From Candidatus Saccharimonadota bacterium (lineage in GTDB: Bacteria > Patescibacteriota > Saccharimonadia > Saccharimonadales > Saccharimonadaceae): a stretch of DNA of 44,364 nt. The translations under genes were made by a program, and so were the position numbers. The notes under the pieces are model-generated. The model saw nothing but the letters and a program-made list of their open reading frames with translations. It had not been told where the DNA came from and made no database searches. The DNA lies in assembly GCA_009783305.1 (NCBI GenBank), contig WRHJ01000002.1, positions 151,097 through 195,460 on the forward strand, read 5' to 3'. This document shows, piece after piece, positions 9,656 through 44,364 of the stretch. Every line of letters begins with the position of its first letter. The stretch's first letter is position 1.

Positions 9656-9732
9656 TGGTGAGTCGGGTGGGACTCGAACCCACGACACCCAGATTAAGAG
9701 TCTAGTGCTCTAACCAGCTGAGCTACCGACCC
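9656..9732 (-). tRNA. tRNA-Lys (anticodon CUU)
   Basis: A full cloverleaf can be drawn on the minus strand: acceptor GGGTCGG/CCGACTC (one G-U pair), D arm with AGCTCAGCTGGTTAGAGC, anticodon stem CTAGA/TCTGG with loop CTCTTAA giving anticodon CTT, T arm with GGGTTCGAGTCCC, discriminator A and an encoded CCA. A TATAAT box lies about 18 bp upstream of the 5' end. It sits inside the accessory island; no integrase and no duplicated 3' tRNA end are visible nearby. Confidence 0.96.
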
Positions 9733-9818: not shown

Positions 9819-12176
9819 TCAAAAAGCGTACAGTTCTTTTTGAAGGTTTATATAATTTTGTCGTATGTTTTCTGCAGCACCAAGCTTAGTCGTAGCATCT
9901 GACAAGGTGCGATATTTCAACTCAAGTAATCCGCGGAGATTTTCGAGCGATAGCTCATTCTCGCCAGCTTGCTCGTATGTGCCTAGTACGAAGTTAACAA
10001 ATTCTTTTTCGCCCTCGCTTAGTTGTTCAAAGTAATAATCTCGCATAAGACTGATTCGTTCGCGACGAGTTATCGTATCTCGCGCATAGGCAATATACCG
10101 CAAGACATCATAGACGTCGCTATCGGTCGCGTCGACTAGTTCCTTCAACGCTTCGAGTTTATCCTCGTCAAAGCCGTGCATTGCTAAGCCTTGCAGAAGG
10201 GATTTACGAGTCCGCGGGTTAGCCCATTTCTCTCGTAAATCATCCTCAGAGACGAACAGGTCCGGTAATTCCCCAAAAAGCTTCTCTAAAAACTCTTTTG
10301 ATGTTACTGGCTTGCCTTCAAAATAAAATCTCGTATTAACATCGTAAGTTATTTCTTGCTCTCGTTCACCTAGCTTGACGACAGTCTTCTCCTTTGGCTC
10401 TTTCGATTCGGAATCCCCTTCATATGATGGAATTGGTTCGTTAATCACTCCACCACAATTTGGATTATCTACTGGGCAATCTTGGGTAGGCGGTAATGGT
10501 TCGCCGTCCCATTCTGGGTCATTGAACATTTTATCGTTGCCATAGAAATCAACAATAGTGAAGTAATCTTTATTGTCAAAAATCCTCGTGCCACGCCCTA
10601 TGATTTGCTTGAACTCTGTCATTGAGCCAACTCGTCGCATCAGTACGATAAACCGCACATTACGAGAATCAACTCCTGTGGATAGCTTCCGAGAGGTGGT
10701 AACGAGCGTCGGGATTATCTTCTCGTTATCCCTGAACTGTCGCAAAAACTCATCGCCCACTTCGCCCTCGCTTGCTGTGATACGTACGCAATAGTCAGGG
10801 TTGCTGTTCGTCTTCAGCTTGTTCACGCTGTCGCGAATCATTAACGCGTGTTTCTCGTCATTACAGAAAATAATAGTCTTCTGTTCTGGATTGATTTGCT
10901 CAAGCATAATCCTAGTCAAATCTTCTTCTCGCTTTGGAATGTAAATTGCGCGGTTGAAATCATTCAAAGTATATTCTTTATCTGGGTCTACCTCTCCACT
11001 TTCGGCAATATCGCCATCACTCAGATGATAGGTGTCAAATGAAGTCGTAATCGATTTCATCTTAAATGGTGTCAAAAAGCCGTCTTCAATACCGTCTTTG
11101 AGTGAATAAGTATAGAGTGGTTCGCCAAAGTATTCATAGGTGTCGATGTTATCAGTACGCTTCGGTGTGGCGGTCATACCTAGATGTGTTGCACCAGAAA
11201 AATGGTCAAGTACAGCTCGCCAATTACCATCATTTGTCGCGCCACCACGATGACATTCATCAATAATAATCAGGTCAAAGAAGTCGCTTGGGTACTGCTT
11301 ATAAACTGGGTTGGCTGTTGGGGCAATTTCTTCTGTTTCGGTCTCTTCGCTAACTTCACCTGACAACATCCCGCTAATATCGCTCGTCATCGCCTGATAA
11401 ATTGAAAAGAAAATATTGCCGTTAGTCGGCACTTTACCGGCTTTGCGAATCTCCTTGCCCGAAATACGGATAATCTCGCTCTCAAGTGGATTGAAATCGC
11501 CCATCGCTTGTTCTATAAGAGCATTGCGATCTGCAAGAAATAGAATTCTTGGTCGACGATCATCACCTCGCTTATTCCAGCGAGTCTGGAAGAGCTTCCA
11601 AACTATTTGAAAGGCGATAAATGTCTTACCTGTGCCGGTCGCTAGTGTTAGTAAAGCACGATTAGCCCCACCAGCTATTTTATCAACGGCAAGGTTGATG
11701 GCGTTTTCCTGATAGTAGCGCGGTGAGTATTTCACTCGCTGAAATGCCTCGGTCGCAACTTTAAGTTGCATCGGTGACATGCCAGAAAAAGTCAAATCAA
11801 AAAGTTCTTCGGGTGCGTGATATTTTTCAATATGATCGCCTGTCCCCGTTTTCATATCAAAGAAATATACGCCATGTCCATTCGTCGAGTAAACATAGCG
11901 AATGTTAAGAACTTTAGCATAATCCTTTACCTGCTCTAGTCCTTCAGTGATTTCTTTACCTTCAGCTTTAGCTTCTACTATCGCGAGCTTCTGGTTCTTA
12001 TAGGCGAGGACATAGTCTGCTTTTTTGCGTTTTCCTCTTTGCCCTGCACCAATTAATCGACCGTCAGTGAAAGAATACTCCATTAAAACTTGGCTTCCGA
12101 GCGTTTCATTCACTCCCCAACCACTCGCCCGAATTTGTGGGCTTATTAGCTCAAATTTCGTGGTTTCTTCATTCAT
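9819..12176 (-). CDS. hsdR: Type I restriction enzyme, R subunit
   Basis: Motor and nuclease subunit of a type I restriction-modification system; it translocates and cleaves unmodified DNA when bound to the methyltransferase. The N-terminal PD-(D/E)xK nuclease is visible as Asp54 (KKADYVL) and Glu68-Ala-Lys70 (IVEAK). The helicase has Walker A ATGTGKT (residues 179-185), the DECH box (306-309) and MTATPKR, and a second RecA domain containing IIGRGTRIFD. The C-terminal 150 residues look like the EcoEI-type HsdR C-terminal domain. At 785 residues it matches EcoEI-like HsdR. All catalytic motifs are intact. It is last in the hsd operon but has a TATAAT box 11 bp before its ATG, so it may also be transcribed alone. 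Confidence 0.95.
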   Translation of the reverse strand: MNEETTKFELISPQIRASGWGVNETLGSQVLMEYSFTDGRLIGAGQRGKRKKADYVLAYKNQKLAIVEAKAEGKEITEGLEQVKDYAKVLNIRYVYSTNGHGVYFFDMKTGTGDHIEKYHAPEELFDLTFSGMSPMQLKVATEAFQRVKYSPRYYQENAINLAVDKIAGGANRALLTLATGTGKTFIAFQIVWKLFQTRWNKRGDDRRPRILFLADRNALIEQAMGDFNPLESEIIRISGKEIRKAGKVPTNGNIFFSIYQAMTSDISGMLSGEVSEETETEEIAPTANPVYKQYPSDFFDLIIIDECHRGGATNDGNWRAVLDHFSGATHLGMTATPKRTDNIDTYEYFGEPLYTYSLKDGIEDGFLTPFKMKSITTSFDTYHLSDGDIAESGEVDPDKEYTLNDFNRAIYIPKREEDLTRIMLEQINPEQKTIIFCNDEKHALMIRDSVNKLKTNSNPDYCVRITASEGEVGDEFLRQFRDNEKIIPTLVTTSRKLSTGVDSRNVRFIVLMRRVGSMTEFKQIIGRGTRIFDNKDYFTIVDFYGNDKMFNDPEWDGEPLPPTQDCPVDNPNCGGVINEPIPSYEGDSESKEPKEKTVVKLGEREQEITYDVNTRFYFEGKPVTSKEFLEKLFGELPDLFVSEDDLREKWANPRTRKSLLQGLAMHGFDEDKLEALKELVDATDSDVYDVLRYIAYARDTITRRERISLMRDYYFEQLSEGEKEFVNFVLGTYEQAGENELSLENLRGLLELKYRTLSDATTKLGAAENIRQNYINLQKELYAF

Positions 12177-12211: not shown

Positions 12212-12664
12212 TTACAGCGTAAACGCCTCAGCAAGCACGGATTGTCTTAGTTCTATAATCTTTGCGAGCTTTTCTATATATAGCTCGTTGGCCCTATTCA
12301 CTCTAGCAAGTTTTCTGTCGAGTTTTTTTACAACCTTATCCTGCTCATTTAGCGCCGTATCTGGAAATGGAAAACGCCTTAAGTACCCCAAGCTTACAAA
12401 TCTTTGCGTTGAGCCGTTTGCTTCTTTTCCCATTTTGTCGGCCACGAAAGGTGACTGTAAATAATATTTTAAGTATTTGCTGCTCTGATTAGCTTTGCTC
12501 TTAAATAATGCGACATTCTTTATTGCAAAGTTCGGCTCATGCTCAATGATTATTGGGTTTCCGATAGTTCCAATCATAGCCATCAAAACATCTCCGACAT
12601 CAACCTTACTCCTGCCGTTAATCTTGGCGTAATCTTCTTCAGAAATGTATTTAACGTTGTCCAT
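12212..12664 (-). CDS. hsdS: HsdS second half (TRD2 and C-terminal repeat), out of frame with first half
   Basis: The second half of a type I specificity subunit. The ATG given is internal: the same frame is open further upstream to the AC repeat and there encodes LGDIFDVRDGTHDSPKY, the typical opening of a target-recognition domain, followed by SKNLRTGIL and this ORF's VKYISEEDYAKINGR. It ends with the paired conserved helix LNEQDKVVKKLDRKLARVN and the terminal IELRQSVLAEAF, echoing SILAEAF at the end of the first half. Without the opening of TRD2 this ORF alone is unlikely to be a working half-subunit. Removing one AC unit from the repeat joins it to the first half as a 387-residue HsdS, a normal length. 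Confidence 0.85.
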   Translation of the reverse strand: MDNVKYISEEDYAKINGRSKVDVGDVLMAMIGTIGNPIIIEHEPNFAIKNVALFKSKANQSSKYLKYYLQSPFVADKMGKEANGSTQRFVSLGYLRRFPFPDTALNEQDKVVKKLDRKLARVNRANELYIEKLAKIIELRQSVLAEAFTL

Positions 12665-12768
12665 AGATAAAATACCAGTTCTTAAATTTTTCGATGTGGC
12701 TAACGGAAATCCCCTTGCGTGATATTTTGGCGAGTCGTGCGTTCCGTCGCGAACATCGAAAATATCTC

Positions 12769-13377
12769 CTAGTCGGCGTGTGTGTGTGTGTCGCTATCGA
12801 GCTTGAACGCCTCGGCGAGAATGCTTTTCTGCAAATCTGCCACGTTTGCGATATTCTGCCGCAAAAGCTTCTCCGCCTTCGTAATTCTGCTCAAGCTTTT
12901 ATCCAACTTTGCCACAATCTTCCTCTGTTCCTCCATGCTCGGAATCGCGATCTCAATTTTTCCGATTTCAGCGGTTCGTAGCGATGGGTAAGACTGGTCA
13001 CCGAGCAAATCTTTTGCATCAATTTGTATCAGAAAATTATAGAGATATTTTGTATCAACTTTGGTAATGTCAGGCACAATTGTCGCTAGGTGACTAACAA
13101 CATAACCATCGATGCCCATAATCACCCGGTGATTCAGAAAGGTTGATGCCCCACTTTTCGGAAACAAAATCGTGCCTTTTGGGAAGAGTCGCAATCCTTT
13201 TATACCTTCATCATTAAGGAGATCCCTTGGCGTCTTTAAGTTGTCAGACAAATGAACGGCACCGACATCAGAAGTTCGGAAAAATGGGTACTTTCCGTTA
13301 ATAAATAACTCTTTTTTCTGTGGTGCGGGATTGCCGCTTGAAATGTCTGCAATTTCATGTAATTTTACAATCTTCAT
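12769..13377 (-). CDS. hsdS: HsdS first half (TRD1 and central repeat), stops just after an AC repeat
   Basis: DNA-specificity subunit, N-terminal part, 202 residues: a TRD with MKIVKLHEIADISSGNP, YPFFRTSDVG, FPKGTILFPKSG and then the central conserved helices PSMEEQRKIVAKLDKSLSRI and ANVADLQKSILAEAFKL. The last residues, DSDTHTHAD, are coded by the (AC)7 tract and its immediate flank, after which a TAG ends the frame. It starts 4 bp inside the end of the membrane-protein gene (ATGA overlap). As written it is a half-subunit; half-HsdS proteins can dimerise and give a symmetric recognition site, so the truncated form may still be functional with a different specificity. Confidence 0.9.
   Translation of the reverse strand: MKIVKLHEIADISSGNPAPQKKELFINGKYPFFRTSDVGAVHLSDNLKTPRDLLNDEGIKGLRLFPKGTILFPKSGASTFLNHRVIMGIDGYVVSHLATIVPDITKVDTKYLYNFLIQIDAKDLLGDQSYPSLRTAEIGKIEIAIPSMEEQRKIVAKLDKSLSRITKAEKLLRQNIANVADLQKSILAEAFKLDSDTHTHAD
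12778..12791 (-). repeat. (AC)7 dinucleotide repeat inside hsdS
   Basis: Seven perfect AC units on the coding strand (GT on the plus strand), lying exactly at the junction of the central conserved region and the second recognition domain. With 7 units the frame ends at TAG 6 bp later; with 6 or 9 units the frame runs on through TRD2. The placement and unit size are those of a slipped-strand contingency locus. Confidence 0.9.
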
Positions 13378-13820
13378 TTCTTACCATTCTTCTTTTTAAA
13401 TATAGACTTATTTTTACCTAGAGCTAAATACAGCGCAAGGAATATAGCTAAGAGATATACAAATACGGTGACAGCTTTCAAATCTTTAATAGCTTCTGTA
13501 ATACCTAATAAAATCCCGCCAGTTAAAAAACTCAGCAGAGTAATATTCACGGCACTATGATAAATTTCTAATAACTTTTCTGTTGTAATTCTTTTTCGCC
13601 ATGATTTTGGCATGAACAAAAACCGTCTACTATCGGCGTAGTATATCGCGACACAAATTAGATAAACAAACCATGTAACATTAGCTGCATTCAATATTAA
13701 CTTTATAGCAAACCAGAAGCCGTCATCACCGCCCGTAAAAATCTGCACCGCAATAGACATCGCCAAAACTGCGACAGCAATACTTAGGCGCATCTCATTA
13801 GGCTTATTCTGCTCAGGCAT
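13374..13820 (-). CDS. Four-helix membrane protein between hsdM and hsdS
   Basis: 148 residues with about four membrane helices (LSIAVAVLAMSIAVQIF; NAANVTWFVYLICVAIYYA; ITLLSFLTGGILLGI; VFVYLLAIFLALYLAL) and a strongly basic C-terminus (KNKSIFKKKNGKK). The ATG at this position is chosen over an upstream in-frame TTG. It overlaps the hsdM stop by 8 bp and the hsdS start by 4 bp, so it is locked into the restriction-modification operon. Membrane proteins are not a standard part of type I systems. It could tether the complex to the membrane, meet incoming DNA, or be a passenger. No family recognised. Confidence 0.8.
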   Translation of the reverse strand: MPEQNKPNEMRLSIAVAVLAMSIAVQIFTGGDDGFWFAIKLILNAANVTWFVYLICVAIYYADSRRFLFMPKSWRKRITTEKLLEIYHSAVNITLLSFLTGGILLGITEAIKDLKAVTVFVYLLAIFLALYLALGKNKSIFKKKNGKK

Positions 13821-15276
13821 CAATCTCTCCCAAAACCTTCGCGATCTCGTTATCGATTTTCTTGATCTTGTTCAAGATTTCTCTTGGTGATTTCAGCTCT
13901 TCGGCTTTAGTGACATTTGGGTTATTCACTCTGAGATCGAAGGTCTTTTTGTTGACTTCAGTAATATTAACTGTCCAGCTATTTTCGCTATCTACCCGAG
14001 ATTCGTACTTTTCGAGAAAATCTGACATATCGTCAATATTGAGTGGGGTTGTTTTACCGAGCGTACGACCAAGATTCAGCTGGTAGTAGAAGATATCTCT
14101 TGTTGGCTCGCCCTTTTTGAAGAATAGAACAACGGTCTTCACGCCAGTCGAACTATTTGCCGAGAATATACCGCTAGGCAAGTCTAAGACCGTGTGTAGA
14201 TTGAAGTTTGAGAGCAATTCTTTGCGAATCTGTGCTGTTGAGGTTTTCTCGGTATTTCCATTCGTGAGGAAGGTGTTCTTGATGACAATTGCTGACTCAC
14301 CGCCGATACGGAGTTTCTTCATGAAATGTTGCATAAAAAGCTCGGCAGTCTCGGAAGATTTAATAGTGAAGTTGCGCTGGACTTCTGCATGCTCACTGCC
14401 GCCAAACGGCGGATTAGCGAGAATGTAGTCGAAGCGATCTTTGTCTTGAATATCGTGAGTATCTTCGGCAAGCGTATTGCCTTCGACCATATTTGGAGAC
14501 TCCATGCCATGGAGAATCATGTTCATTGTTCCGATCAGATATGGTTCCGGCTTCTTGTTCTTGCCGAAAAACGTATCTTCCTTTAGAAAGCGAAGTTCGC
14601 TCGGGGTCTTTGCCTTGTCTCGGAGATATACATAACTTTCGGTCAAGAACCCAGCCGATCCCGCTGCGCCATCATAGATCGTTTTACCAAGCTTTGGATC
14701 TATAGCGAGTATCATTGCCTGAATTAGTGGACGAGGCGTGTAGAACTCGCCACTGCGACCAGCTCCGCCAAGTAATTTCAGGCGATCTTCGTACAAAGCC
14801 GACAAGTCGTCCAATTCTTCTTGCGTTTTGAACTCAAGCGGGTCAATCAGATCTAGGATTTCACGAAGATTGCGACCACTTTTAATTTTCTGTTCGATTT
14901 CAGAATAAATTACACCTATCTTATAGTGAACGCTTCTGGGGTCTTCGGTAGTAGACTTGAAAGATTTGAGGTACGGGAAGAGCTTCGTGTTTACGAATTT
15001 CATCAGGTCGTCGCCGACGAGCTGTCTACTTAAATCGGGTTTGCCGTTTGGGAGTTTTGGGCACGCCCATACATCCCAACTAAACTCTTCTTTGAAGGTC
15101 GGTTCGTATTGGCCACTTTTGAATACCGCTTCCTCTCGACGAGTATCCTCAAGGTCATCAAGATATTTGAGGAACAAAATCCAAGAAATCTGCGTTATAT
15201 AGTCGTTTGCACCGCTCGTACCTGCATCTTCAAGCAGTATATTATCAATTCGTTTAAACTGTTGCTGTATACTCAT
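13813..15276 (-). CDS. hsdM: Type I DNA methyltransferase, M subunit
   Basis: N6-adenine methyltransferase subunit that protects host DNA and forms the core with HsdS. The 487 residues comprise an N-terminal helical HsdM domain (about 1-150), the GRSGEFYTPRPLIQ entry to the catalytic domain (about 173-186), the SAM-binding motif DGAAGSAGF (202-210) and the catalytic NPPF at 288-291. The SAM motif has Gly-Ala-Ala instead of the more usual Pro-x-x-G start but is otherwise sound. It is the first gene of the hsd operon; TATAAT ends 10 bp before the ATG and no ribosome-binding site is visible. It is divergent from the tfoX-like gene. Confidence 0.96.
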   Translation of the reverse strand: MSIQQQFKRIDNILLEDAGTSGANDYITQISWILFLKYLDDLEDTRREEAVFKSGQYEPTFKEEFSWDVWACPKLPNGKPDLSRQLVGDDLMKFVNTKLFPYLKSFKSTTEDPRSVHYKIGVIYSEIEQKIKSGRNLREILDLIDPLEFKTQEELDDLSALYEDRLKLLGGAGRSGEFYTPRPLIQAMILAIDPKLGKTIYDGAAGSAGFLTESYVYLRDKAKTPSELRFLKEDTFFGKNKKPEPYLIGTMNMILHGMESPNMVEGNTLAEDTHDIQDKDRFDYILANPPFGGSEHAEVQRNFTIKSSETAELFMQHFMKKLRIGGESAIVIKNTFLTNGNTEKTSTAQIRKELLSNFNLHTVLDLPSGIFSANSSTGVKTVVLFFKKGEPTRDIFYYQLNLGRTLGKTTPLNIDDMSDFLEKYESRVDSENSWTVNITEVNKKTFDLRVNNPNVTKAEELKSPREILNKIKKIDNEIAKVLGEIDA

Positions 15277-21955: not shown

Positions 21956-21993
21956 AAACCATAAGCATGCGTTTTTCATCAGGTCAAAAAAAT

Positions 21994-22002
21994 GGGGGGG
22001 GG
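21994..22002 (+). repeat. G9 homopolymer at the translation start of the surface protein
   Basis: Nine consecutive G immediately before the favoured ATG (22004). They also form the codons after an upstream in-frame ATG (21992). A change of tract length would alter the ribosome-binding spacing for the second ATG, or the frame for the first. Confidence 0.8.
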
Positions 22003-22003
22003 T

Positions 22004-25000
22004 ATGAATTCTCTTAGTTTTCGACGTTCATTTTTCCGTAATCTTTCTGTCTCATTAATCATTACTTTTGCCTTCTCATTACTTATCACTACTATAGTAG
22101 GCATTATCGTCAATCAACAATCTCCCACTAGCACTTCTGCTCTGCCTCCTACTCCAACTATCACCTGGCAAGGAGGCACAGACAGTAACTGGACTACTGC
22201 AAGCAACTGGGATACAGGTATTATTCCCGCAATTTCGGATGACGTACTAATTCCCTCGGCTAACGTTACTCTAGTTATAGCCAACGATACTGATCTAGAG
22301 ATTAATTCTCTTACTCTTACTGGTAACTCTATCCTGACTATTCAGTCTGTTAATACTGGTACTATCCTCCTCCCTGCTAATCCTATTACTACTAGGCTGG
22401 TAGTAGATACTGACATCTATCTAGAGGATACTAGCCAAATTACACATCCAACCAACACTGCAAATACCACCACTCCATATCAAATCAACCTAGATATTGG
22501 AGGACTCCTAAGCATCGACACTAACGCCAAAATTGACGTAGCGGGGAAGGGGTATGCAAGCGCACTAGCTGGCAACGCTAACCCAGGTAGCAGCGGTGCA
22601 AATAATGGAGCATGCGGTTATAACAGCGCTGTTGGCGGCCAATATGGTGGCCAAGGTGGTCAGCAAGGGACCTGCGCAGTTGCTGCTTCTTATGGCAGCT
22701 TTATAGCCCCAACTGACCTTGGTTCTGGCGGGCGTGGGGCTTCCGGTTCGTCTGGCGGTGGCGGCGGTAACGCAACTCCTTCCTCTACTGCCGGCGGTGG
22801 CGCCATTCGCATAAATGCCGACTCCGTTGTTTTAGATGGTTCGATTATCGCCGATGGCTTAAATAATGCTGATGGTAGCACAAACACTGGATCATCATTT
22901 GCTACAGGGGCTGGTGGCTCAATTTATATGACCGCTAATCAAGTCTCCGGTGCTGGTAATCTTCAAGCCAGTGGTGGCAACCTAACCAGTTCTCTTGTCG
23001 GTGGCAAATATGGTCCAGGCGGTGGAGGAAGAATTGCAGTTATTACAACCGGAGTAAATTCTCTCATGCCTTCTCAATACCAGGCCACATCCGGATCCAG
23101 AGGAGTAGGCGGTTACGCTAATACGTTGGCCGGAGCTGCCGGAACAATATACGTTGTTGATAGTACAGCCCCGCAAGGTATCCTCACCGTCTTCAATGCC
23201 GATCGTGCCGCTGTTGATTCTTCTGCCCGAACCACCGTCGGTTCCAGTTCTCCCTATCAATTTGATGAACTGGTTATCACGAACGGCAGTCGGCTAAATA
23301 TCACGGGAGATTTAGAGACAGGATCATATGTTTTTCAAGGCAACTACTCTCTTCTAAACCTATCTGGCTCATTTTCCTACACATCTTCGAATGATCTCAT
23401 AATTGACACTAATTATTTCTACCTCACCGTAGGCAGCATAGTTAATACCAATACTAATCTCATAGTTCAAAACTCCAGCAATAGTCCTAGTAGTACAGCT
23501 ACCGGTAACCAAATAGTCATCAATTCGTCTCAATCCCTCAATAGTGTAGACATCAATAATAATTCAGGAGTCTTCACTGTAACTGGAGCATTAACTGTAG
23601 CCCAAGGCATAGATATAATTGGCAATTCATCCACTAATACTATTTCAGGCAATCTTACTGTGGGCGAAGACCTCAGCCTTTCCGGCATCAGCGCCAACAA
23701 CATCAACGGCATTGCTTCTGTTGCAGATGACATCATCATCGCCGACGGCACCACTACTATGTGCTCAGTCACCGCCACGACTTCTGGATCAGGAGCTGGA
23801 CTCACCACTAGCCTAAATACCGTCAACATCAGCGCTACAAACCTTACTCTGAGCGGTAGTGCTGTGCTTACCCATTGCACTCATACGGCAACCACAACTA
23901 ATCTAAGCACTATAAATATTAATCTTTCTGACACCCTCTCTATTGCCTCCGGCGCCAAGATCGATACTGTAGGTAAGGGATATACGGGAACAACGGCTGG
24001 CAATTCTAATCCGGGAACTAGTGGCGGCAACAATGGTGCATGTACTGTTTCCGGCACTAGCACTGGTGCTGTCGGCGGCCAATACGGTGGTCAAGGCGGA
24101 GCAGCAGGTACTTGCGCTGCTAACATTGCTGGCCCTTACGGTAACTTTATGGCTCCTGTTGATCTCGGTTCTGGCGGGCGCGCTACCTTTGCTTCCGGAG
24201 GTGTTTCGTCAACTGCCGGCGGCGGTGCCGTTCGTATTAATGCTGATGTTGTTGTCCTTGATGGCGTTATTAATACTAGTGGTCTGGACAATACTACCGC
24301 TGGCTCCGCTGGCACCAACTCCTCTCATGCCGCCGGTGCTGGAGGCGCTATCTACATCACGGCAGGGCAGGTATCTGGGTCAGGTAATCTCATAGCTAAT
24401 GGCGGAAGTACTACTAGTGCCGTTAGTCTCGTCTATGGTCCCGGCGGCGGAGGACGCATCGCCATCATTACGACTGGTGTCAATTCGCTCACCACCTCGC
24501 AATACCAAGCTGCATCCGGATCTAGAGGTTACGGTGGTTATGGTGGCGCTCTTGCTGGTGCTGCAGGGACAATTTATACTTTCAATGGTTCATCGACCTA
24601 TGGCACACTCATCATCGGCAATGCCGATCACTCCGCAGCCAACTCTACCGCGCAAACAAGTACGGTCCCAGCCTCACTATATCAATATGACGAACTGGTT
24701 GTCATAGAAGGTGGTCGCCTCAACCTCAGCGGCGATCTCGAATTTACTACTTATGACTTTCAAGGCAACTATTCTGCTCTTACTGTCTCTGGGTCGCTTG
24801 CTTACCCAACTTCTCACGATCTCATTATAGATACTAATAATTTCTATCTCACATTAGGCAGCCTTACTGACCCAGACACCAACATTATTGTCCAGGATTC
24901 TACTAATATCCCTAGCAACATGTCTACCGGTAATAGGATAGCCATTAGTTCATCACAATTACTTAATAGTGTGGATTTCAACAGCAACTCAGGCGCCTTC

Positions 25001-28000
25001 ATAGTCAGCGGCAATCTTGCTGTTGCAGAAGGATTAAGTATAATAGGCAACTCATCCACCAACACCATCACTGGCAACATTGCAGTAGTAGACGACATCA
25101 TTATCTCTGGCAATTCATCTATCAATACTATATCTGGATTAGTTACGGCCACTAATTTTGGCATTTTTGGTACTTCTCATAACAGCACTATAAATAATCG
25201 CCTCATCATCGACGATGACGTTACCCTAACTGACGGTACGACAACAATCTGTTCAATTACGGCTTCCACCTCAGGATCAGGTACTGGGCTTACTACTTCG
25301 CTGAATACCACTAATGTCGATGCCACTAATCTTTATCTTTACGGCACTGCTATTCTTACGCATTGCACCAATACTGCCACCGCCACCAGTCTCAATACGC
25401 TCAATATCGAACTTTCCAACAATCTCTCTATTGCCTCCGGAGCGAAAATCGATGTAGTAGGAAAAGGCTACGCCGGAGTACTAGCCCCCAACGGTAATCC
25501 TGGTAATAGCGGCGCCAACAATGGCGCTTGTTACGTCGGCGGCGGTGCAGGAGCTGTTGGCGGTCAATATGGCGGTCAAGGAGGTATGTCTGGTAGTTGT
25601 ACTACAGCTGCCGGTACCTACGGCGACTTCATGGCTCCACTCGATCTAGGATCTGGAGGACGCGGCACATATGGTGTATCCGGCGGCGACGGACCCTTAT
25701 CGACTGCCGGCGGCGGTGCTGTTCGCATCAATGCCAACTCCGTTACTCTCAATGGGATTATTTCCGCTAGTGGTCTAGATAACCCCAACGGCTATAATGA
25801 TAGCCGCCACTCCTCCTCTGCCGGTGGGGGTGGGGCAATCTATATTACAGCTAGTCAAATTTCTGGAACAGGCAGTCTTCAATCCAACGGCGGCGGCACC
25901 ACTAGCGCCATATCTAATGGTGCCTACGGTCCCGGGGGCGGAGGGAGAATCGCAGTTATCACTACTGACGCCAACTCTCTCACTACATCACAATACTCGG
26001 CCGTGTCTGGAGCTAGAGGCGTAGGTGGCTATACTGGAGCTCTAGCTGGAGCTGCTGGAAGTATTTATATCTTTGACGGCTCTTCTACCTACGGTACACT
26101 CATCATCGGTAACGCCAACCACTCTGCTGCCAATTCTACAGCGCAAACCGGTGTGCCAACTTCTGCTCCACTTATTGAATACGACGAACTAGTTATTATT
26201 GAGGGCGGCAGACTCTCCCTCACTGGCGATCTAGAAGTTACCAGTTACGACTTTCAAGGTAACTATTCTGCCCTCACTGTCGGCGGCTATTTCTCCTACT
26301 TCACCACTAACGACCTCATATTAGACACTGACAATTTCTACCTCACATTAGGAAGTATTGCCAATACTAATACTAACCTTGTCGTCAAAAATTCTAGCAA
26401 CAATCCCAGTTACACGGCTACTGGTAACCGAGTAGTTATTAATTCCTCCCAATCGCTTAATAGTATAGATGTCAATAACAATTCCGGCATTTTTACAGCT
26501 AACGGTTCTCTTGTTGCAACTGAGGATATTATTATTTCTGGCAGTTCGTCTACTAACACCTTCTCAAATAATATTACTGCAGGCGGAAACCTAACGCTTT
26601 CCGGCATCAGCGCCAACAACATCAACGGCATTGCTTCTGTTGCAGATGACATCATCATCGCCGACGGCACCACTACTATGTGCTCAGTCACCGCCACGAC
26701 TTCTGGATCAGGAGCTGGACTCACCACTAGCCTAAATACCGTCAACATCAGCGCTACAAACCTTACTCTGAGCGGTAGTGCTGTGCTTACCCATTGCACT
26801 CATACGGCAACCACAACTAATCTAAGCACTATAAATATTAATCTTTCTGACACCCTCTCTATTGCCTCCGGCGCCAAGATCGATACTGTAGGTAAGGGAT
26901 ATACGGGAACAACGGCTGGCAATTCTAATCCGGGAACTAGTGGCGGCAACAATGGTGCATGTACTGTTTCCGGCACTAGCACTGGTGCTGTCGGCGGCCA
27001 ATACGGTGGTCAAGGCGGAGCAGCAGGTACTTGCGCTGCTAACATTGCTGGCCCTTACGGTAACTTTATGGCTCCTGTTGATCTCGGTTCTGGCGGGCGC
27101 GCTACCTTTGCTTCCGGAGGTGTTTCGTCAACTGCCGGCGGCGGTGCCGTTCGTATTAATGCTGATGTTGTTGTCCTTGATGGCGTTATTAATACTAGTG
27201 GTCTGGACAATACTACCGCTGGCTCCGCTGGCACCAACTCCTCTCATGCCGCCGGTGCTGGAGGCGCTATCTACATCACGGCAGGGCAGGTATCTGGGTC
27301 AGGTAATCTCATAGCTAATGGCGGAAGTACTACTAGTGCCGTTAGTCTCGTCTATGGTCCCGGCGGCGGAGGACGTATAGCTATCAACAATGGAGTCTGG
27401 ATCAGCAGTATCGATGCTAATCATGGCCTGCTGATTGGGGGTAACACTGTAACTATCACAGGAGGAGGCTTTGCTGATGGTACAGGAGTAATTGGCCCCA
27501 GCGGTACTGGTCCTACTGCCTTCTTCTTTGGAGGAAAGCCAGCTACTAACGTTGTCTTTCTGGATGAACATACAGCTACTATGAGAGTACCAGCTGGAGA
27601 TGCTCCTGGAGAAGTCGATGTCGTAGCTAGTAATAACAACAGTGATCTCGATGGCATTACACTCACAGGGAATATAACTGTAGCTGCCGGTACACGTGCA
27701 GCTGGAACTGGCACATCAGCAGAGGTAGGTACAATCTTCATGCGCAATTCCTTAGCCTTATCCGCCTATACCTACAATGATGCTACGATGGCTATCTACC
27801 TAGACGATATCTGTGCAGGAGTAGATGGACTAGTCCTTTCCATTACTCCACTACCAGGAGGAGGAGCTATCAGTAATGGCAGTTGTACAGCTAATGTCTT
27901 TTCAGGTGATCCTAATGGCTACAGTCTGTCTATCTCTACAGACGAGACTACCTGGGATATAGCCTATCCACTACAGCCTATAGGTGATGGCACAACTTCT

Positions 28001-28318
28001 GGCATCCTCAGTAACCCCATCGCTCTAACACCAGGTACTATAGGCTTTGCCTTTCCTACTACTCAGACTAACAGTACGGGTCTTGTCTCTTCAAACTTCA
28101 ATACTACCTATCCGATTGTGCACTCACTAGCCAGTGCCTCCCATACTAACCTCTATGCCCAAATCCCCACTCTCAGCAGTCCCCTTACCATTAAGACTAC
28201 CAATACGACTCATCCTAGTGGTGACTTTACTACACTCATCATAGGAGGCAATGCTAATATGACTATACCTACTGGAGAGTTTAGTTTTACGTTATTGTTT
28301 AGTGTTGTGGGGAATTAA
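22004..28318 (+). CDS. Giant secreted glycine/threonine-rich repeat protein with C-terminal IPT/TIG domain
   Basis: About 2104 residues. Residues 1-45 carry a basic N-terminus and a signal/anchor helix (SVSLIITFAFSLLITTIVGII). It is followed by a WQGGTDSNWTTASNWDTG segment seen at the start of many large surface proteins. Then come four modules of roughly 300-450 residues, each with the pattern SIASGAKID-x-x-GKGY, glycine-rich GGQYGGQGG, LGSGGR, TAGGGAVRIN, GAGGAIYITA, YGPGGGGRIA and a linker of short NNSG/SSTNT beta repeats, predicting a long beta-helix or stacked beta solenoid. After module 4 is an IPT/TIG domain (ISSIDANHGLLIGGNTVTI) and a final domain with NGYSLSISTDETTWDIAYP. No LPxTG or C-terminal anchor is seen. 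Modules 2 and 4 are identical over 779 bp. Likely a host-contact or attachment protein. Confidence 0.85.
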   Translation: MNSLSFRRSFFRNLSVSLIITFAFSLLITTIVGIIVNQQSPTSTSALPPTPTITWQGGTDSNWTTASNWDTGIIPAISDDVLIPSANVTLVIANDTDLEINSLTLTGNSILTIQSVNTGTILLPANPITTRLVVDTDIYLEDTSQITHPTNTANTTTPYQINLDIGGLLSIDTNAKIDVAGKGYASALAGNANPGSSGANNGACGYNSAVGGQYGGQGGQQGTCAVAASYGSFIAPTDLGSGGRGASGSSGGGGGNATPSSTAGGGAIRINADSVVLDGSIIADGLNNADGSTNTGSSFATGAGGSIYMTANQVSGAGNLQASGGNLTSSLVGGKYGPGGGGRIAVITTGVNSLMPSQYQATSGSRGVGGYANTLAGAAGTIYVVDSTAPQGILTVFNADRAAVDSSARTTVGSSSPYQFDELVITNGSRLNITGDLETGSYVFQGNYSLLNLSGSFSYTSSNDLIIDTNYFYLTVGSIVNTNTNLIVQNSSNSPSSTATGNQIVINSSQSLNSVDINNNSGVFTVTGALTVAQGIDIIGNSSTNTISGNLTVGEDLSLSGISANNINGIASVADDIIIADGTTTMCSVTATTSGSGAGLTTSLNTVNISATNLTLSGSAVLTHCTHTATTTNLSTININLSDTLSIASGAKIDTVGKGYTGTTAGNSNPGTSGGNNGACTVSGTSTGAVGGQYGGQGGAAGTCAANIAGPYGNFMAPVDLGSGGRATFASGGVSSTAGGGAVRINADVVVLDGVINTSGLDNTTAGSAGTNSSHAAGAGGAIYITAGQVSGSGNLIANGGSTTSAVSLVYGPGGGGRIAIITTGVNSLTTSQYQAASGSRGYGGYGGALAGAAGTIYTFNGSSTYGTLIIGNADHSAANSTAQTSTVPASLYQYDELVVIEGGRLNLSGDLEFTTYDFQGNYSALTVSGSLAYPTSHDLIIDTNNFYLTLGSLTDPDTNIIVQDSTNIPSNMSTGNRIAISSSQLLNSVDFNSNSGAFIVSGNLAVAEGLSIIGNSSTNTITGNIAVVDDIIISGNSSINTISGLVTATNFGIFGTSHNSTINNRLIIDDDVTLTDGTTTICSITASTSGSGTGLTTSLNTTNVDATNLYLYGTAILTHCTNTATATSLNTLNIELSNNLSIASGAKIDVVGKGYAGVLAPNGNPGNSGANNGACYVGGGAGAVGGQYGGQGGMSGSCTTAAGTYGDFMAPLDLGSGGRGTYGVSGGDGPLSTAGGGAVRINANSVTLNGIISASGLDNPNGYNDSRHSSSAGGGGAIYITASQISGTGSLQSNGGGTTSAISNGAYGPGGGGRIAVITTDANSLTTSQYSAVSGARGVGGYTGALAGAAGSIYIFDGSSTYGTLIIGNANHSAANSTAQTGVPTSAPLIEYDELVIIEGGRLSLTGDLEVTSYDFQGNYSALTVGGYFSYFTTNDLILDTDNFYLTLGSIANTNTNLVVKNSSNNPSYTATGNRVVINSSQSLNSIDVNNNSGIFTANGSLVATEDIIISGSSSTNTFSNNITAGGNLTLSGISANNINGIASVADDIIIADGTTTMCSVTATTSGSGAGLTTSLNTVNISATNLTLSGSAVLTHCTHTATTTNLSTININLSDTLSIASGAKIDTVGKGYTGTTAGNSNPGTSGGNNGACTVSGTSTGAVGGQYGGQGGAAGTCAANIAGPYGNFMAPVDLGSGGRATFASGGVSSTAGGGAVRINADVVVLDGVINTSGLDNTTAGSAGTNSSHAAGAGGAIYITAGQVSGSGNLIANGGSTTSAVSLVYGPGGGGRIAINNGVWISSIDANHGLLIGGNTVTITGGGFADGTGVIGPSGTGPTAFFFGGKPATNVVFLDEHTATMRVPAGDAPGEVDVVASNNNSDLDGITLTGNITVAAGTRAAGTGTSAEVGTIFMRNSLALSAYTYNDATMAIYLDDICAGVDGLVLSITPLPGGGAISNGSCTANVFSGDPNGYSLSISTDETTWDIAYPLQPIGDGTTSGILSNPIALTPGTIGFAFPTTQTNSTGLVSSNFNTTYPIVHSLASASHTNLYAQIPTLSSPLTIKTTNTTHPSGDFTTLIIGGNANMTIPTGEFSFTLLFSVVGN
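23678..24456 (+). repeat. 779-bp direct repeat, copy 1
   Basis: Copy 1 of a long direct repeat inside the surface-protein gene. By reading, and because translations in several frames are the same, it appears identical to the copy 2919 bp downstream. Similarity breaks sharply on both sides. Confidence 0.9.
26597..27375 (+). repeat. 779-bp direct repeat, copy 2
   Basis: Copy 2 of the direct repeat. The offset of 2919 bp equals 973 codons, so recombination between copies keeps the frame and would delete or duplicate modules 2-3. Beyond the 3' end, the sequence changes to the IPT/TIG region. Confidence 0.9.
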
Positions 28319-37000: not shown

Positions 37001-37076
37001 CGGGGCGTGGCGCAGTTGGTAGCGCGCGCGGTTCGGGACTGCGAGGTCGCCTGTTCAAGTCAGGTCGCCCCGACCA
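37001..37076 (+). tRNA. tRNA-Pro (anticodon CGG)
   Basis: Acceptor CGGGGCG/CGCCCCG, D arm around GGCGCAGTTGGTAGCGC, anticodon stem CGCGG/CTGCG with loop TTCGGGA (anticodon CGG), T arm GCCTG-TTCAAGT-CAGGT, discriminator A and encoded CCA. TATAAT at 36985-36990 is just 10 bp before the 5' end. The stop codon of the convergent gene lies 2 bp after the CCA. Confidence 0.96.
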
Positions 37077-38646: not shown

Positions 38647-38721
38647 CGGGGCTTGGCGCAGTGGTAGCGCGCACGGCTGGGGGCCGTGAGGTCGCAAGTT
38701 CAATCCTTGTAGCCCCGACCA
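38647..38721 (+). tRNA. tRNA-Pro (anticodon GGG)
   Basis: Acceptor CGGGGCT/AGCCCCG, anticodon stem CACGG/CCGTG with loop CTGGGGG (anticodon GGG), T arm with GTTCAATC, encoded CCA. TATAAT at 38628-38633 lies 13 bp before the 5' end. The next tRNA-Pro begins 11 bp after it, so both are on one transcript. Confidence 0.95.
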
Positions 38722-38732
38722 CAATTTATTAT

Positions 38733-38808
38733 CGGGGTTTGGCGCAGTTGGTAGCGCGCCGCGTTTGGGACGCGGAGGTCGCTGGTTCGAGTCCAGTAAC
38801 CCCGACCA
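38733..38808 (+). tRNA. tRNA-Pro (anticodon UGG)
   Basis: Acceptor CGGGGTT/AACCCCG, anticodon stem CCGCG/CGCGG with loop TTTGGGA (anticodon TGG), T arm CTGG-TTCGAGT-CCAG, discriminator A and encoded CCA. Second gene of a tRNA-Pro pair. Confidence 0.96.
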
Positions 38809-44176: not shown

Positions 44177-44364
44177 ATGGCATTACTAAGCCGATCCGAG
44201 AGAGAGAGAGAGAGAGACTAAAAGCACCAACTCTGCTTTTGACAAACCAGCTTTATCGCAGAGAAAACCTGTTTCAGTCAGGGTTTTCTCTGGAGTCGCT
44301 ACGTTTGTCAAAAACAGAGTTGGTGCTTTTACTATATTTCTTTCTTGTTTTGTTTTTGCCTTTA
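44177..44364 (+). CDS. Possible phase-variable ORF, currently frameshifted, cut by window end
   Basis: AGGAG precedes an ATG whose frame codes MALLSRSERERERD and stops at TAA within the last codons after a (GA)10 tract. TATAAT at 44139-44144 can serve as promoter. Both other frames are open from the repeat to the end of the window. With 8 or 11 units the frame reads TKSTNSAFDKPALSQRK, then VRVFSGVATFVKNRVGAFTIF, which looks like a basic N-terminus plus a signal/membrane helix. With 9 or 12 units it reads a Leu-rich sequence ending TELVLLLYFFLVLFLPL. The former looks more protein-like. Product unknown. It may be a surface protein continuing beyond the window. Confidence 0.5.
44198..44217 (+). 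repeat. (GA)10 dinucleotide repeat near an ORF start
   Basis: Ten perfect GA units, seven codons after an ATG with an AGGAG ribosome-binding site. Length changes shift the frame exactly as in other contingency loci. Confidence 0.95.
44219..44331. repeat. 113-bp nested inverted repeat at window end
   Basis: Outer arms of 29 bp with one mismatch (44219-44247 and 44303-44331; left arm starts TAAAAGCACCAACTCTG). An inner 11-bp perfect stem CAGAGAAAACC/GGTTTTCTCTG lies at 44259-44269 and 44282-44292. The hairpin-in-hairpin design is like that in rsmA although the sequence is different. It overlaps the possible coding region after the (GA)10 tract; as RNA it would be a long stem followed by T-rich sequence and could also act as a terminator for the CBS-domain gene. 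Confidence 0.85.

Follow-up and report, generated by a model that had tools for sequence, protein, structure and literature searches.

The hsdS gene of a type I restriction-modification operon in a Candidatus Saccharimonadota genome is interrupted, as assembled, by an (AC)7 tract between its two recognition domains, and it is probably a contingency gene in which slippage of this tract switches the product between a full HsdS and a dimerising half-HsdS with altered site specificity. All positions given without a contig name refer to the window, i.e., the whole stretch of 44,364 nucleotides that was analysed. The interruption had been described in an earlier note made from the letters alone, and the coordinates, reading frames and domain matches obtained here agree with that description.

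The interrupted hsdS gene and its operon

The gene lies wholly on the minus strand, so that its upstream (5') half is found at the higher coordinates. The 5' half (12769..13377) starts at the ATG at 13377, reads through seven AC units (ACACACACACACAC on the minus strand, 12791-12778) and stops at a TAG 6 bp past the tract (12771-12769), as the earlier note had read it; the product of this assembled allele is a half subunit of 202 amino acids with the C-terminus KLDSDTHTHAD. The 3' half (12212..12778, minus strand) is in frame only with 6, 9 and so on AC units. When the AC count was varied in silico, six units gave a joined HsdS of 387 amino acids, the length claimed in the earlier note for the loss of one unit, and nine units (the alternative gain of two) gave full read-through at 389 amino acids. 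With 7 or 10 units the product had 202 or 204 amino acids, and with 8 or 11 units it had 242 or 244 and ended in a tail in the wrong frame (about 40 residues with eight units). The tract is a perfect tandem repeat in coding sequence whose unit number alters the frame, as in SSR-controlled phase-variable genes. The only stop in the frame of the 3' half is its own terminator, compared with 16 and 14 stops in the other two frames.

Both halves belong to the Methylase_S family (PF01420; E-values of 3.4e-16 for the 5' half and 1.3e-6 for the 3' half) and match HsdS profiles (PADLOC Specificity_I at 1e-24 for the 3' half). Each contains one recognition domain followed by a conserved helix (central in the 5' half, C-terminal in the 3' half), which is the arrangement of a type I HsdS, and the two are joined only in the frame with six or nine units. 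In PDB sequence alignments the first conserved helix of the half subunit extends to residue 191, corresponding to residue 203 of 5ybb, and the second recognition domain begins at 5ybb residue 217; the AC tract encodes the linker between them and thus sits where the first conserved helix gives way to the second recognition domain, as in NgoAV. The AlphaFold model of the 202-aa half (pLDDT 72, based on only four aligned sequences) consists of a domain, a long helix (residues 148-197) and a loose tail, with the helix ending at residue 197 just ahead of the tract-encoded THTH, and its best PDB folds were the HsdS proteins 1yf2 and 5ybb.

The hsdM, hsdS and hsdR genes form one cluster and carry the family-specific domains of type I restriction-modification systems, the order on the minus strand being hsdM, an ORF for a hydrophobic protein of 149 amino acids, hsdS and hsdR. 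The hsdM gene (13813..15276, minus strand) encodes a full-length type I N6-adenine methyltransferase of 487 amino acids (PF02384 at 1e-53, HsdM_N, and PADLOC MTase_I at 7e-140 over the full length), and hsdR (9819..12176, minus strand) encodes an intact restriction subunit of the EcoAI/FtnUII family with 785 amino acids (NF046051, 790.7 bits at a cut-off of 550, residues 1-784). The hydrophobic ORF (13374..13823, minus strand), which was taken from the ORF list and its translation, overlaps hsdM by 11 nt and hsdS by 4 nt and had no family match in profile searches; relatives have different ORFs at this place. The operon is flanked by a tRNA-Lys gene (9656-9732) on one side and, on the other, by a small ORF for a 139-aa protein with a CdiA_C domain (PF18451; 15773-16192, minus strand) followed by recA. 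Elsewhere in the window there are two tandem tRNA-Pro genes (anticodons ggg and tgg; 38647-38808, plus strand), which are about 80% alike, and a third tRNA-Pro gene (37001-37076).

In the search of the genome PF01420 matched only the two halves of this one hsdS. Switching by inversion (recombination), which depends on inverted repeats and at least two copies of hsdS, was therefore rejected. Neither this HsdS nor a closely related HsdM was present in the 44 further genomes of the genus that were searched, which suggests that the operon arrived horizontally. In viral contigs neither the HsdS half nor HsdR had any relatives.

Tract length, relatives and competing readings

The expectation for an (AC)6 run was 0.02 in the shuffled 44-kb window, and the repeat census of the 788-kb genome, which covered AC, AG and G runs by pattern matching, found (AC)7 once, at the hsdS tract. 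Any dinucleotide run of at least seven units occurred in 3 of 20000 Markov-simulated hsdS genes. When the same peptide was recoded synonymously 20000 times, 58 of the resulting sequences kept such a run, and the repeat is thus not forced by the HsdS sequence.

Four other genera of the family have an HsdM with 70-74% identity to the one described here. In G110 (locus L018), which belongs to another genus and has a 70% identical HsdM, an intact HsdS of 370 amino acids carries (AC)6 at the homologous codons (LQKSILAEAFKLDSDTHT... in the present genome, LQKSILHKYLSADDSTHTH in G110); single-sequence AlphaFold prediction of this protein gave no usable model (pLDDT 39). The hsdS of G113 is intact as well and has ACGCAC at the homologous place, G066 encodes a different HsdS, and in G155 the gene is cut by the contig end. 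The comparison of AC counts among related genomes, which the earlier note had proposed, hereby yielded six units in another genus versus seven here and no dinucleotide run above four units in 24 other related hsdS genes; within the genus the allele seen is the one assembled hsdS with seven units, from one strain, the other 44 genomes having no such HsdS for a comparison of lengths. Among 394 genomes of the family, a pattern of an AC run following the conserved helix matched no more than two, the present one and G110, and among 380 genomes of the phylum it gave, besides the present genome, only one match, by chance (this match, in G721, lies in an ORF for a membrane protein of 494 amino acids and was rejected as an hsdS). 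The tract common to both genera could reflect common descent of a THTH linker without selection for slippage. The second recognition domain of G110 (L018:6009-6524) is 41% identical to the first one of the G113 HsdS (L036:5861-7051) and is, to judge by this identity, a recognition domain that has moved between the two positions.

In the proposed switch, slipped-strand mispairing during replication would change the number of AC units in hsdS. Alleles with six or nine units would supply the two-domain HsdS (387 or 389 amino acids) for methylation and restriction at an asymmetric bipartite site. Alleles with seven units, as assembled, or ten would supply the half of about 202 amino acids, made of one recognition domain and the spacer helix. 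Two copies of this half would associate and guide HsdM (and HsdR) to a bipartite site that is palindromic. Eight units would add to the same half a wrong-frame tail of about 40 residues. Seven dinucleotide units make a short tract, and the switching rate could consequently be low. That the half subunit is active and dimerises, and that expression follows the frame, we infer from NgoAV and from an engineered half-HsdS; the half subunit of the earlier note, which may dimerise and read another site, is plausible by this analogy.

The tract might instead act as an on/off switch, the seven-unit product being unstable or inactive, modification and restriction being off, and HsdR being idle without a specificity subunit. 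The cut falls, however, at the position that yields active half subunits in natural and engineered systems, the half-subunit model keeps a complete domain and helix, and two of the three frames give the half subunit, not a very short product. We consider an on/off switch unlikely, although a half-HsdS need not always be stable, a half-S construct having been poorly stable in one study (PMC6158711), and although the 3' half cannot be supplied as a separate protein: no ATG, GTG or TTG stands ahead of its recognition domain, and its first downstream ATG (12664) lies inside this domain, such that a start there would drop about 37 residues.

In contrast to a switch of either kind, the frameshift might be fixed, with an AC count that no longer varies and a gene that is either a decaying pseudogene or a permanent half-HsdS. 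This is improbable given that the 3' half shows no further inactivating change across its 188 codons, that hsdM and hsdR are intact and that the change is one of a whole unit in a tract kept in frame by another genus (G110); the single assembled allele and the loss of restriction systems from reduced genomes speak for it. An assembly or sequencing error, in which the true count is six and HsdS is always full length, would fit the six units of the intact G110 gene and an intact frame only one unit away, but is very improbable because the contigs stop within about 150 bp of shared repeat sequence (ends of C2, C3 and C5), which suggests short-read data, because short reads seldom miscount a dinucleotide run of 14 bp, and because the tract would be a mutable site even with six units.

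Slippage tracts elsewhere in the genome and genus

A TIG/Fib_succ_major surface-protein family is present in at least four copies that have a (GA)10-11 tract 21 nt past the ATG, in both ON and OFF frames. The copy at the end of contig C2 (ATG at 44177) has (GA)10 (44198..44217, plus strand) and is OFF, with a TAA at once, and the copies at the end of C3 (C3:136814-136835) and the start of C5 (C5:148-169) have (GA)11 and open frames. The complete copy on C1, which encodes 743 amino acids with TIG domains and a Fib_succ_major match just below threshold, has (GA)10 (C1:104486-104505) and is out of frame from the ATG; an alternative start is possible at a GTG or a downstream ATG. Three of these four copies are found at contig ends, where the copies have sequence in common. 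Other contig ends (C1, C3, C4 and C5) carry C-terminal fragments of family members, which agree in their middle part and diverge at the C-terminus.

A poly-G9 tract (21994..22002, plus strand) begins in the start codon of an ORF of 2108 amino acids (21992-28318) that resembles a surface protein and had no Pfam match. According to the frame count the nine G are in frame, and 7, 8, 10 or 11 G lead to a stop within eight codons. The same leader as in the poly-G9 gene precedes a run of 16 G at C4:84-99, which was rejected as a proven gene because none of the G counts that were tried gave a long open frame and because the contig ends 84 bp away. In G013, a second species of the genus, poly-G9-10 runs begin at four ATG codons, of which three precede secreted-looking ORFs, again in ON and OFF frames; poly-G9 at the ATG of such ORFs was seen on L119 and L121 (421-431, 449 and 824 amino acids), some being in frame and others not.

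These tracts point to slippage as a habitual source of variation in the lineage and suggest that the second species uses its poly-G tracts in the same way. The GA and poly-G loci in ON and OFF frames strengthen the phase-variable reading of hsdS, and further slippage tracts in the same genome make a decayed gene or an assembly error less likely than a phase-variable locus. The phase-variable hsdS of the earlier note hence stands as far as its anatomy, the in-frame (AC)6 of G110 and these ON and OFF loci are concerned; that the bacterium switches in the living population, we infer. On balance we lean slightly towards a true phasome in this species, comprising the AC-controlled methylome switch at hsdS and slippage-controlled surface proteins (the (GA)n tracts in at least four paralogues and the poly-G tract of the 2108-aa protein). 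Such a phasome would let the cells of one clone diverge in surface and epigenetic state, perhaps as a means against host bacteria and phages. The set of slippage loci across the genome is more surprising than the hsdS tract itself.

Novelty and comparison with known systems

Most of the known contingency loci come from host-adapted pathogens whose genomes are larger. If the proposed switches are real, the presence of an NgoAV-like methylation system together with slippage-controlled surface genes in a Saccharibacteria genome of 0.79 Mb would mean that ultrasmall, probably episymbiotic bacteria also diversify clonally, which bears on host change, phage resistance and differences between cells in Saccharibacteria and is directly testable with Saccharibacteria cultures and with read sets that already exist. 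A search of the open-access literature for phase variation in Saccharibacteria, Patescibacteria and the candidate phyla radiation (CPR) found no such case, in line with the earlier note, the absence of reports being weak evidence because only open-access literature was covered. The nearest case from the CPR was a hypervariable repeat gene in a gracilibacterium (PMC6851277). Simple repeats are present in 7.9% of the hsdS genes in REBASE, and switching had been demonstrated in only two species when that survey was written, in the text of which Saccharibacteria are not named (PMC7394358). Both SSR-bearing hsdS genes and the split form (NgoAV) are therefore already known, and what is new is their setting in CPR bacteria.

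Inverting type I loci, in which several hsdS copies recombine with each other to bring about the switch (PMC7394358), have in common with the present locus a phase-variable HsdS specificity, for which a single hsdS with a repeat tract would serve here instead. The poly-G precedent in a Neisseria hsdS that the earlier note had named is correct and corresponds to NgoAV of Neisseria gonorrhoeae, in which poly-G slippage yields an HsdS of 208 or 410 amino acids with changed specificity (PMC9577141). The natural half subunit of NgoAV is active, and the two sites of the system are GCAN8TGC and GCAN7STCA (PMC9577141). NgoAV (hsdM-hsdS1-hsdS2-hsdR) resembles the present operon in having a simple repeat between the recognition domains, with hsdM and hsdR alongside, and in the sizes of the half and full subunits (202 and 387 amino acids here). 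The two differ in the tract, which is poly-G in NgoAV and an AC dinucleotide here, in the host, a proteobacterial pathogen versus a CPR bacterium, and in the hydrophobic ORF that separates hsdM and hsdS in the present operon; switching and the change of specificity have been demonstrated for NgoAV and are proposed here. A second parallel is the engineered CC398-1 HsdS, which was cut directly before its second domain and dimerises, methylates ACCN5GGT and restricts together with HsdR (PMC6158711). Its cut point is the place where the seven-unit allele stops, and whereas the CC398-1 half was made in the laboratory and contains no repeat, the present gene carries a natural tract at this position and its half subunit is predicted to be active.
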